Shown one piece after another: positions 13,326 to 18,510 of a stretch of 60,407 nucleotides of DNA; position 1 is the stretch's first letter; every line of letters begins with the position of its first letter. Below the pieces are notes generated by a model that did not search any database, was not told the DNA's origin, and worked only from the letters and a program-made list of their open reading frames with translations. The translations under genes and the position numbers were made by a program. The stretch is from Pelagibacteraceae bacterium AG-426-P20 (GTDB taxonomy: Bacteria > Pseudomonadota > Alphaproteobacteria > Pelagibacterales > Pelagibacteraceae). Location: the NCBI GenBank assembly GCA_003210015.1, contig QCNX01000003.1:1-60407 (forward strand), given 5' to 3'.

Positions 13326-15103
13326 TGAAATATCCTAAAGAATATCTTGATGAAATTAAAACAAGGTTAAAAGTTTCAACTGTTGTTTCAAAGACCGTTG
13401 TCTTAAAAAAAAGGGGCAAAGAGTTTGTTGGTTTGTCTCCATTTAAAAATGAAAAAACACCATCATTTACTGTAAACGATGAAAAAGAATTTTACCATTG
13501 TTTTGCAACATCAGAGCATGGAAACATTTTTGATTTCGTCATGAAAATTCAAAATCTTAAATTTGGTGAAGCAGTAAAGTATTTAGCTCAATTAGCCGGT
13601 ATGCAGCCTTATATGTTTTCAAAACAAGATGAAGAAAGAGAAAAAAAGTGGAGAGAGTACCAATCAATCTTTAGTCAATACGTAGATTTTTATCATAATG
13701 AATTATTAAAAAATCAAAATTATTCTGTTGCAAGAGATTATTTAAAAAATAGATCTTTAACTAAAGAGGAAGTTAAAAAATTTAAAATTGGGTATATAGA
13801 AAAAAATCCAAATTATTATGAAAAATTAAAAAAAGATTTTAGTGAACAAACTTTACTAGATACTGGATTATTTTATTTAGATGAAAAGAAAAAAGTTTAT
13901 GTAGAAAGATTTAGAGGAAGACTTATTTTTCCAATTAATAATATATCAGGACAACCCATTGCTCTTGGCGGAAGGATAATTGAAAAAAGTGACTTTCTTG
14001 CAAAATATATAAATTCTCCAGAGACTAACTTTTTTAAAAAGGGATCAAATTTATATAACCTTGATCAAGCAAGAAAATTGTCTAACAAACTTGATCATAT
14101 TTATTTAGTTGAAGGATATATGGATGTAGTTGGTTTGAATAAAAATGGTATTGAAAATACAGTTGCTAATCTTGGAACATCATTGACAGATAAACAAATT
14201 TTAACTTTAAATCAATTCTTTGATGATATTATTATTTGTTTCGATGGTGATGAAAGTGGTTATAAAGCTGCTTTAAGAGCAGCTGAAAATTCAATTAAAG
14301 AATTAAAACCAGAGAAACAGATCTCTTTTTTATTTTTACCAGACGGTGAAGATCCTGACAGTTACGTAAATAAAAATAGTAGAAATTTTTTTATAGATTT
14401 TACCAAGCAAAATAAAATTTCAATTCATCAATTTATTTTCAGTCATTATAAAAAACAGACAGAAAATAATCCATCTTCAATGGCAATTTTTGAAAAAAAA
14501 TTAAGATCAATAGCAAATACAATTAAAGATGACTATATTAAAAAATATGTTCTCGAATATTTTTTAGAAAAAATAGCGGAATTAACTCCACACTCAAACT
14601 ACAATAAAAAAAATTATAATTATAAAAAAACTATTAAATCTTTAGATAGCACTAAGAAAATATTTAGAGATAGCCAATCTCTCACTGGAGTTGAGCTTAA
14701 AGAATTTTCATTGTTGTATTTATTGATTAATAACTCAAATTTAATTCAAGAAAATTTACATTTAATTGAAAATATCAAATTATTTACAGAAGTTAACAGA
14801 CAGGTTTTTGAAGAATTGCTCTCAAAACTTAAATCAGGAGAAAAATTATTAATCGATGAGATGAATATTGATAAGCAATTATTGGATAAAATTGAAAAAT
14901 TTGCACCTATTAAACATATTTTAAAAAATAAATTAAAAGATGATTATGAAATAATAGAATTATTTGAAGACATTAGTCGCGATCTTATAAATTATGATTT
15001 AGAGCATAGAATCCAGGAACTAGAATCAAAATTTTCAAAAGATCTGAGCGAAGTAACTTTTAATGAGCTAAAAGAGCTTAAAAAAAAGCAAAATATCAAT
15101 TAA
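13325..15103 (+). CDS. dnaG: DNA primase (DnaG)
   Basis: DnaG makes RNA primers for DNA replication. Three parts are visible in 592 residues. The N-terminal CHC2-type module (residues 1-100) has the conserved EKTPSF and EFYHCF, but its zinc ligands are mostly gone: SPFK replaces CPFH and ATSEHG replaces GCGAHG. The TOPRIM catalytic core follows, with LVEGYMDV near residue 262 and the acidic CFDGDESGYKAALRA near 307. The C-terminal part is a helical DnaB-interaction region, lysine-rich and poorly conserved. It is coupled to yqeY by a TAATG overlap and precedes rpoD, a shortened relative of the macromolecular-synthesis operon. Confidence 0.95.
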   Translation: MKYPKEYLDEIKTRLKVSTVVSKTVVLKKRGKEFVGLSPFKNEKTPSFTVNDEKEFYHCFATSEHGNIFDFVMKIQNLKFGEAVKYLAQLAGMQPYMFSKQDEEREKKWREYQSIFSQYVDFYHNELLKNQNYSVARDYLKNRSLTKEEVKKFKIGYIEKNPNYYEKLKKDFSEQTLLDTGLFYLDEKKKVYVERFRGRLIFPINNISGQPIALGGRIIEKSDFLAKYINSPETNFFKKGSNLYNLDQARKLSNKLDHIYLVEGYMDVVGLNKNGIENTVANLGTSLTDKQILTLNQFFDDIIICFDGDESGYKAALRAAENSIKELKPEKQISFLFLPDGEDPDSYVNKNSRNFFIDFTKQNKISIHQFIFSHYKKQTENNPSSMAIFEKKLRSIANTIKDDYIKKYVLEYFLEKIAELTPHSNYNKKNYNYKKTIKSLDSTKKIFRDSQSLTGVELKEFSLLYLLINNSNLIQENLHLIENIKLFTEVNRQVFEELLSKLKSGEKLLIDEMNIDKQLLDKIEKFAPIKHILKNKLKDDYEIIELFEDISRDLINYDLEHRIQELESKFSKDLSEVTFNELKELKKKQNIN

Positions 15104-15170: not shown

Positions 15171-16994
15171 GTGGAAAGAATTATAACAAAATCATTTGCT
15201 AGACTAATGGGTCGAGGAACTCATAGGGGATTTATAACTTACGAGGAACTAAGCAAATCATTAGGTAAAAGAAATCTTTCTAATGAAAACTTATCTCAAG
15301 CATTTATTCATATTTTAGAAGAAGGCGTAACATTAGTAGAAAAAAAATCTGATTATAAAGTTTTAAGAAAAAAAGAAAATTCATCAAAAGAAGAGGGCAA
15401 AACTATTGAAAAAAGTGACGACCCAATTCGAATGTACCTTAGAGAAATGGGCGGTGTTGAACTTCTTTCTAGAGAAGGAGAAATTGCAATCGCAAAAAGA
15501 ATAGAGGCCGGTAAAGATGTAATGTTAATAGCATTATCACAGAGTCCGATTACTGCGCAACAATTTTTTGAATGGAATGAAAAATTACAGAAAGATGAAA
15601 TTTTAGTTAGAGAAATTATAGATATTGACACTAACTACATGGAAGATGAAAGTACAGGACCGAGCGCAAAACAAAAGAATGCAGGAGAAACAGATAAAGA
15701 AGATGGATCAAACGAAGATGATGATGATTTCAATCCTACGCTTGCTGCAATGGAGTCAGAAATTAGACCAAAAGTTCTTAAAACAGTTCATATACTTACA
15801 AAAGAGTACAATAAATTAATTAAGTATCAAAAAGAAAAGCTAGATTGTATTTTAAACTCTCAAACTTTTTCATCAACAAAAGAGAAAGGTTATGAAAAAA
15901 TAGTTAATGATATTTTGGAAAATATAAAATCCCTTCAATTATCTCCATCTGTTTTAGAAGATCTTGTACAAAAACATTATATTGAAAACAAAAAAATTGT
16001 TTCTTTAGAAGGAAACCTTTTAAGACTTGCAATGGATCATAAAATTTCAAGAAATGAATTTATTAAATTTTATATAGGAAATGAAATTAATCCTAATTTA
16101 AAAAAATTTTTAGATACTAATGTGGTCTGGAAACAATTTTTTGCTAAAAATAAAGAAGAGTTTAAAAATATAAGGGAAAGATTAATAGAAATAAGTCACA
16201 AACTGGGAATGTCGGTGACTGACTTTAAAAAATTAGTAAGCAGAGTTCAAAAAGGTGAAAAAGAATCTAGAATAGCAAAAAAAGAGATGGTTGAAGCAAA
16301 TTTGAGGTTAGTTATTTCTATTGCTAAGAAATACACTAACAGAGGCTTGCAATTTTTAGATTTGATTCAAGAAGGAAATATTGGTCTAATGAAGGCAGTC
16401 GATAAGTTTGAATACAGAAGAGGTTATAAATTTTCAACTTATGCTACTTGGTGGATTAGACAGGCAATTACAAGATCAATCGCAGACCAAGCCAGAACAA
16501 TCAGAATTCCAGTTCACATGATAGAAACAATTAATAAAATTGTTAGAACCCAAAGATTAATATTGAGTGAATTTGGAAGAGAAGCTACCCCAGAAGAATT
16601 AGCAAAAAAACTTAGAATGCCATTAGACAAAGTAAGGAAAGTATTAAAAATTTCTAAAGAACCAGTTTCACTAGAAAAACCAGTTGGGGATGAAGAAGAC
16701 AGTAGCTTAGGAGATTTTATTGAGGATACAAAGGCTCTAGCACCATTAGAACAAGCTATTAAATCAAATTTAGGTGAAGCAACTACAAAGATACTTTCAA
16801 CTTTAACACCAAGAGAAGAAAGGGTTTTAAGAATGAGATTTGGTGTTGGGATGAATACTGATCATACTCTTGAAGAAGTGGGATTACAATTTTCTGTAAC
16901 TAGAGAAAGGATAAGACAAATAGAAGCCAAAGCCCTTAGAAAATTAAAACATCCTAGCAGATCTAAGCAATTAAAGAGTTTCTTAGAAAGCTAA
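15171..16994 (+). CDS. rpoD: Primary sigma factor RpoD (sigma-70)
   Basis: The housekeeping sigma factor directs RNA polymerase to promoters. I accept the GTG start at 15171 because it gives a region 1.1-like N-terminus ([13 protein letters not shown]); a later ATG at MGRG is possible. Region 1.2 ([21 protein letters not shown]) lies near residue 85, followed by a long acidic non-conserved region. Region 2 carries [16 protein letters not shown] and [15 protein letters not shown], which recognises and melts the -10. Region 4 carries [22 protein letters not shown], which binds the -35. The 607-residue length and the presence of region 1.1 separate it from RpoH-type sigmas. Confidence 0.97.
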
Positions 16995-18302: not shown

Positions 18303-18377
18303 GGGCCGTTAGCTCAATAGTAGAGTACTGCATTGACATTGCAGGGGTAGTTGGAGCGTAACCAACACGGCCCACCA
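18303..18377 (+). tRNA. tRNA-Val (anticodon GAC) with non-canonical elbow loops
   Basis: The acceptor stem GGGCCGT/ACGGCCC is perfect and CCA is encoded. The anticodon arm CTGCA-TTGACAT-TGCAG gives anticodon GAC. The T-stem GTTGG/CCAAC is perfect, but the T-loop reads AGCGTAA instead of the TTCRANN consensus. The D-loop AATAGTA has seven bases and a single G rather than GG. The intact stems, the CCA end and the 75-base length argue for a real gene with unusual tertiary contacts, not a decayed copy. It begins five bases after the upstream ORF stop, so it is probably transcribed from within or through that gene. Confidence 0.88.
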
Positions 18378-18433: not shown

Positions 18434-18510
18434 GGGCCTGTAGCTCAGTTGGTTAGAGCAGTACACTCATAATGTATTGGTCCCAGGTTCGAGTCCTGGC
18501 GGGCCCACCA
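18434..18510 (+). tRNA. tRNA with CAT anticodon, probably tRNA-Ile2 (lysidine type)
   Basis: This is a canonical 77-base tRNA with encoded CCA. The acceptor GGGCCTG/CGGGCCC has one G-T pair, the D-loop has GG, the T-loop is TTCGAGT, and the anticodon loop CTCATAA gives CAT. CAT tRNAs can be initiator Met, elongator Met or Ile2 (C34 modified to lysidine by TilS to read ATA). A paired first acceptor base excludes the usual initiator. The GGGCC acceptor and the TTGGTC variable region resemble Ile2 more than elongator Met. I lean to Ile2, which would matter in an ATA-rich genome. Confidence 0.8.

Follow-up and report, generated by a model that had tools for sequence, protein, structure and literature searches.

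A putative recoded elbow in the tRNA-Val(GAC) of SAR11 bacteria

Can a tRNA keep its elbow when the residues that normally build it have been replaced? Few parts of a tRNA are described as more strongly conserved than the T-loop and Psi55 (PMC7912444). In the elbow, residue 18 intercalates between residues 57 and 58 of the T-loop and G18 contacts Psi55, and the G19-C56 pair forms the exposed face, which the ribosome, RNase P and T-boxes recognise (PMC4810234). A tRNA-Val(GAC) gene of Pelagibacteraceae bacterium AG-426-P20 lacks several of these residues. It lies in a stretch of 60,407 nucleotides (hereafter the window), which is contig C3 of a genome of 0.91 Mb that is 76% complete.

A conserved valine tRNA with altered loops

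The gene occupies positions 18303-18377 of the forward strand with the CCA encoded, and ARAGORN and Rfam RF00005 agree on its identity as tRNA-Val(GAC) (53.6 bits against a gathering threshold of 29, with no broken pairs). Each of the four stems pairs, and the fold given by RNAfold is a cloverleaf, bearing out an earlier sequence-only reading that had described intact stems and an encoded CCA and had proposed an Infernal-type score as a check. With the GAC anticodon (18335-18337, +; ARAGORN), A73 and CCA, this cloverleaf has the features of a decoding-type tRNA. The rewritten loops, the swap at 54 and 58 and the single G of the D-loop, all noted previously, are confirmed: the D-loop AATAGTA (18316-18322, +) comprises A14, A15, U16, A18, G19, U20 and A21, with position 17 absent, and the T-loop AGCGTAA (18355-18361, +) comprises A54, G55, C56, G57, U58, A59 and A60. 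G18, U54, U55 and A58 are all replaced, with A18 (18319, +) in the place of G18 and G19 (18320, +) as the only G of the D-loop, and G19, C56 and R57 are retained. The canonical combinations of G18 with U55 and of U54 with A58 are consequently absent; G19 and C56 are both present and can still pair, as had been suggested. The Levitt pair is unusual too, being A15/A48 in the window tRNA and Y15/R48 in some canonical SAR11 tRNA-Val.

The surroundings of the gene are also shared: at 117 of 137 Val loci it is preceded by rpoD and followed by a Met anticodon loop. In the window, these correspond to rpoD (sigma-70; 15171-16994, +; Pfam and synteny), the usual immediate upstream neighbour of the Val tRNA in the genus, and to a tRNA-Met(CAT) with a canonical elbow (AGTTGGTTA / TTCGAGT; 18434-18510, +; ARAGORN and RF00005). 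An O-antigen ligase-like gene (PF04932; 17044-18297, +; Pfam) lies between rpoD and the tRNA-Val in the window genome, and in genomospecies Ib.4 O-chain clusters are reported to have moved to sites beside the tRNAs for Val and Met (PMC11898729).

A search with the 75-nt Val sequence matched 148 of 201 genomes of the same genus, 125 of them identically across the full 75 nt. At 30 of the loci with an identical tRNA (identity 1.00), the 50-nt flanks, compared without gaps, were only 0.28-0.39 identical, which is near random for AT-rich DNA. A Val(GAC) with G55 also occurs on at least 120 other stretches, many of which come from single-cell genomes of Pelagibacteraceae, and the named records with the rewritten form belong to the Pelagibacteraceae/Pelagibacterales (SAR11). 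An assembly artefact, a sequencing slip and chance are ruled out by the 125 identical copies and the single-cell genomes; a sequencing slip had already been discounted in the sequence-only reading, which proposed a comparison across SAR11. In that comparison, the tRNA proved to be fixed in the clade and its loops were not confined to one assembly.

In a complete relative (G012; a single contig of 1.34 Mb with 32 tRNAs, in which 5000 bases read N), the rewritten tRNA is the sole Val(GAC) and the sole G34 valine tRNA, the other valine tRNA being one canonical Val(TAC). Of the replacement genes that had been envisaged, a second Val(GAC) is therefore missing from this genome, while the Val(TAC) is present and might read GUU.

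Three classes of tRNA-Val were distinguished within SAR11. The canonical form occurs in the sister family (f2), in genera g2, g5, g6, g7 and g9, in most of g4 and in a few g1; A18 with a TGCRA T-loop was found at L264 and L331; and A18 with an AGCRTWA T-loop occurs in nearly all g1 and g10 and in some g3, g4 and g12. In addition, the tRNA-Val of genome G196 (L048:1047-1121), which is not called by ARAGORN, has the T-loop GGCAGCA, combining G54/G58 with A18/G55. A 56-nt 3' fragment of tRNA-Val, located 256 kb from the full gene in genome G251 (L334:71-126; G251:C1:397210-397265), looks like an integration (att) scar. Across the order, a G55 tRNA was present in 179 of 247 genomes and in none of the 53 from the sister family, with A18 in every match listed. 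A class-wide scan of 289 sampled genomes, using a pattern limited to GCTC-type D-arms with 5-nt variable loops, matched only two genomes, both of the window genus.

Paired changes across tRNA isotypes

The rewriting extends beyond tRNA-Val(GAC). For example, the tRNA-Phe of G000 and G012 (AGGAGTA / TGCGAAT) carries A18 and G55; G012 has no other tRNA-Phe, and no other was found in G000. The tRNA-Thr(GGT) of G012 (AGGTAGTA / TGCAAGT) and one tRNA-His of G209 also carry A18/G55, and the switch occurs among SAR11 isotypes in Val, Phe, Thr(GGT) and His, each in some genomes. The Phe, Thr and His forms keep U54-A58, and G19 and C56 are kept in the SAR11 elbow variants. As most tRNAs of the window genus retain G18/U55, the change is not forced.

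Among the distinct tRNAs of the SAR11 set, taken over all isotypes and with nucleotide 18 assigned by counting back from the D-loop 3' end, 104 have G18/U55, 34 have A18/G55 and none is mixed, such that A18 occurs if and only if G55 does (an earlier parse of the set gave a Fisher p~1e-25; neither the counts nor the p-value are corrected for phylogeny). The different isotypes provide independent support for this covariation; the Val and Phe A18/G55 versions may share sequence through gene conversion. Positions 54/58 are U-A or A-U only in the same set, and positions 16/59 of the rewritten SAR11 Val are either U-A (AATAGTA/AGCGTAA) or A-U (AAAAGTA/AGCGTTA), with no intermediates. Canonical and rewritten Val within the genus differ at as few as 2 of 52 non-loop positions, and the D- and T-loops therefore changed together on one backbone. 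Overall, G18/U55 has changed to A18/G55 as a unit and U54/A58 to A54/U58 as a unit, with G19/C56 kept.

With a probability of roughly three in four, we consider this tRNA to be functional, conserved and used to decode valine codons, with an elbow that was recoded rather than lost and in which A18 and G55 are predicted to pair. In such an elbow, A18·G55 would stand in for G18·Psi55: G55-C56-R57 would form a GNR-type U-turn, and A18 would insert under R57 and pair with G55 in the manner of the G·A pair in GNRA loops. The 54·58 pair would still close the T-loop, and the outer G19-C56 face that partners such as the ribosome and RNase P use would be unchanged.

Viral tRNAs and alternative explanations

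The A18/G55 combination is also found on viral contigs. In a pattern scan of IMG/VR, where some contigs could be cellular, ARAGORN identified 205 tRNAs with G55-C56, of many isotypes, on 113 of at least 120 matching stretches. On uncultivated viral contigs (L361-L480), A18/G55 occurs in at least 22 tRNA types, also in an initiator-like tRNA-Met, and contigs L379, L463, L422 and L454 carry whole sets of such tRNAs. When the pattern-selected tRNAs are left out, viral positions 18/55 are G/U in 395 tRNAs, A/G in 78 and off-diagonal in 10, mostly oddly parsed. In the viral tRNAs as a whole, positions 54/58 are U-A in 677, A-U in 24, A-A in three and U-U in none. No A18/G55 tRNA was found in 12 named cultured phages (T5, River4, phiPMW, RcXuper, S-CBWM1, vB_PpS_SYP, DSS3_MAL1, RHph_Y65, DLP_6, S-RIM8, Atu_ph07 and DSS3phi2). 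The cultured phages DLP_6 (L498), RcXuper (L491) and S-CBWM1 (L492) have the A54-U58 T-loops ATCGTTA, ATCGTAA and ATCGTTC together with U55, which would represent an independent elbow switch.

The SAR11 elbow could have been captured from phage tRNAs, an explanation that concerns its origin and not its mechanism, and that we regard as unlikely. The range of viral tRNA types with A18/G55, and the whole sets on some contigs, are consistent with capture, as is the tRNA-Thr(GGT) of G012, whose core differs from that of a viral A18/G55 Thr at 9 of 52 positions but from that of the canonical Thr(GGT) in G000 at 22. In contrast, the Val backbone differs from its closest counterpart, canonical SAR11 Val, at 2 of 52 positions and from viral Val at 17, the gene is unmatched in 50,697 phage records, and the 12 named phages do not carry the elbow. 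A phage origin of the whole Val gene is rejected on the lack of matches in these phage records and on the SAR11-like backbone.

The altered loops might alternatively form a short Watson-Crick helix of A18-U58, U16-A59 (or A16-U59) and G19-C56, with R57 bulged and no A18·G55 pair. The SAR11 Val with U58 conform to this arrangement, with 16-59 always U-A or A-U and 18-58 always A-U, and Kotlova et al. (2007) reportedly described a helix of this kind in suppressor tRNAs made in the laboratory. Nevertheless, the helix appears improbable in light of the wider set of tRNAs. Viral A54-U58 occurs with U55 in 18 tRNAs (mostly with G18) as well as with G55 in six; the switches at 18/55 and 54/58 are therefore independent, which argues that the partner of A18 is G55 and not U58. 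Similarly, A18/G55 is combined with A58 in Phe, Thr, His and two Val, showing that position 58 does not follow position 18, and a viral tRNA-Ile (L379) has A54-U58 with U16/U59. A 16:59 contact on its own also has a precedent, in tRNA-Sec (PMC7609411).

The sequence-only reading had favoured a loosened elbow of the mitochondrial kind, in which the contacts between the D- and T-loops are lost and the loss is tolerated. Two near-universal contacts have indeed changed identity, and the genome is AT-rich and streamlined, but the changes at 18/55 and at 54/58 are strictly paired and do not vary independently. They therefore have the look of preserved contacts, and with G19-C56 kept and 100% identity in 125 genomes, loosening is very unlikely. 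Least probable of all is a specialised, non-decoding tRNA comparable to the staphylococcal peptidoglycan tRNA-Gly (GUGC), in which an altered T-loop is a feature; every valine codon would then be left to Val(TAC). A canonical Val(TAC) does occur, but the sole tRNA-Phe of G012 bears the same A18/G55 elbow, so such an elbow must translate, and GUU and GUC account for 58% of the valine codons in the long ORFs of G012.

Modification enzymes and comparison with known elbows

Pseudouridine 55 is made by the synthase TruB. A search for TruB (PF01509) matched each of the 14 control genomes and the relatives G205, G209, G240 and G558, and gave no match in 11 genomes of the window genus (10 near-complete ones and G000) or in G204 of a neighbouring genus (16 SAR11 genomes searched). 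The gene order of G240 is infB-rbfA-truB-rpsO, and that of G012 is infB-rbfA-rpsO with truB cleanly missing (L514, G012:C1:1203001-1223000, 13434-15044), the rbfA stop lying ~9 nt before the rpsO start. A tblastn search of G012 found neither TruB nor a homologue of E. coli TrmA, and TrmFO had no match above the cut-off in any of the 16 genomes, the weak matches being to ORFs of 622-640 amino acids that are taken to be MnmG. The genus has thus probably lost TruB and appears to be without U54 methylases, such that U55 and U54 are probably unmodified; against this background, A·G would be a good alternative for some tRNAs. An escape of the rewritten loops from TrmA/TruB, as proposed in the sequence-only reading, does not fit these results: as the searches brought up no TruB in the genus and neither TrmA nor TrmFO in the complete G012, there is nothing to escape.

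The rewritten Val is present in all 10 of the near-complete genus genomes that lack TruB and, among genomes tested for both, G55 Phe occurs only in those without TruB. Loss of TruB is neither sufficient nor required, because G240 has both TruB and the rewritten Val; G209 similarly has TruB together with its A18/G55 tRNA-His.

As judged from these comparisons, the SAR11 elbow is a putative new natural variant, compensated and conserved, in the essential tRNA set of a free-living bacterium in which the matching modification enzyme was not found; a literature search found no paper describing A18/G55 in natural tRNAs. More tentatively, and with the odds rather against it, SAR11 and many uncultivated phages may share a second elbow code that needs no Psi55, built on A18·G55 either alone or together with A54-U58; the loss of TruB during genome streamlining would then have opened essential SAR11 tRNAs to the spread of this code, and Pelagibacter would be a natural free-living lineage without Psi55. 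SAR11 are among the commonest bacteria of the ocean, and a natural compensated elbow alongside the absence of TruB in such abundant bacteria would make the role of Psi55 and G18, a long-standing question, testable. An alternative elbow would also matter for programs that find tRNA genes and for the design of tRNAs.

The SAR11 Val shares its cloverleaf, 7-nt T-loop, G19-C56, R57, A14, A21 and identity positions with tRNAs having the canonical bacterial elbow (G18-Psi55, G19-C56, T54-A58), but has A18/G55 for G18/U55, A54/U58 for U54/A58, A60, and no uridine at 54 or 55 to modify. A likeness may also be found in the 'specific purine trap' suppressor tRNAs that were reportedly selected in E. coli by Doyon, Zagryadskaya, Steinberg et al. 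in 2004, in which purine 18 is said to be A if nucleotide 55 is G, as in SAR11. Those laboratory clones are said to have U54-A58, whereas the SAR11 Val is natural and has A54-U58; the SAR11 Phe, Thr and His, which keep U54-A58, fit the trap more fully. Their TGCRA T-loops also resemble the T-loop motifs with GNR triloops predicted in FMN and AdoCbl riboswitches (PMC2258182), with a U-A closing pair, G second and R fourth, although the riboswitch motifs are not tRNA and the SAR11 Val has A-U at the closing position. Contacts between D-loop 16 and T-loop 59 are physically possible, as tRNA-Sec has C16:C59 in E. coli and U16:U59 in eukaryotes (PMC7609411), whereas the SAR11 Val would have a Watson-Crick U-A or A-U pair there. 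Finally, metazoan mitochondrial type II tRNAs are, like the SAR11 Val, without the conserved G18 and T-Psi-C, but in these the contacts between the D- and T-loops are lost, whereas in SAR11 the changes are paired and G19-C56 is kept.
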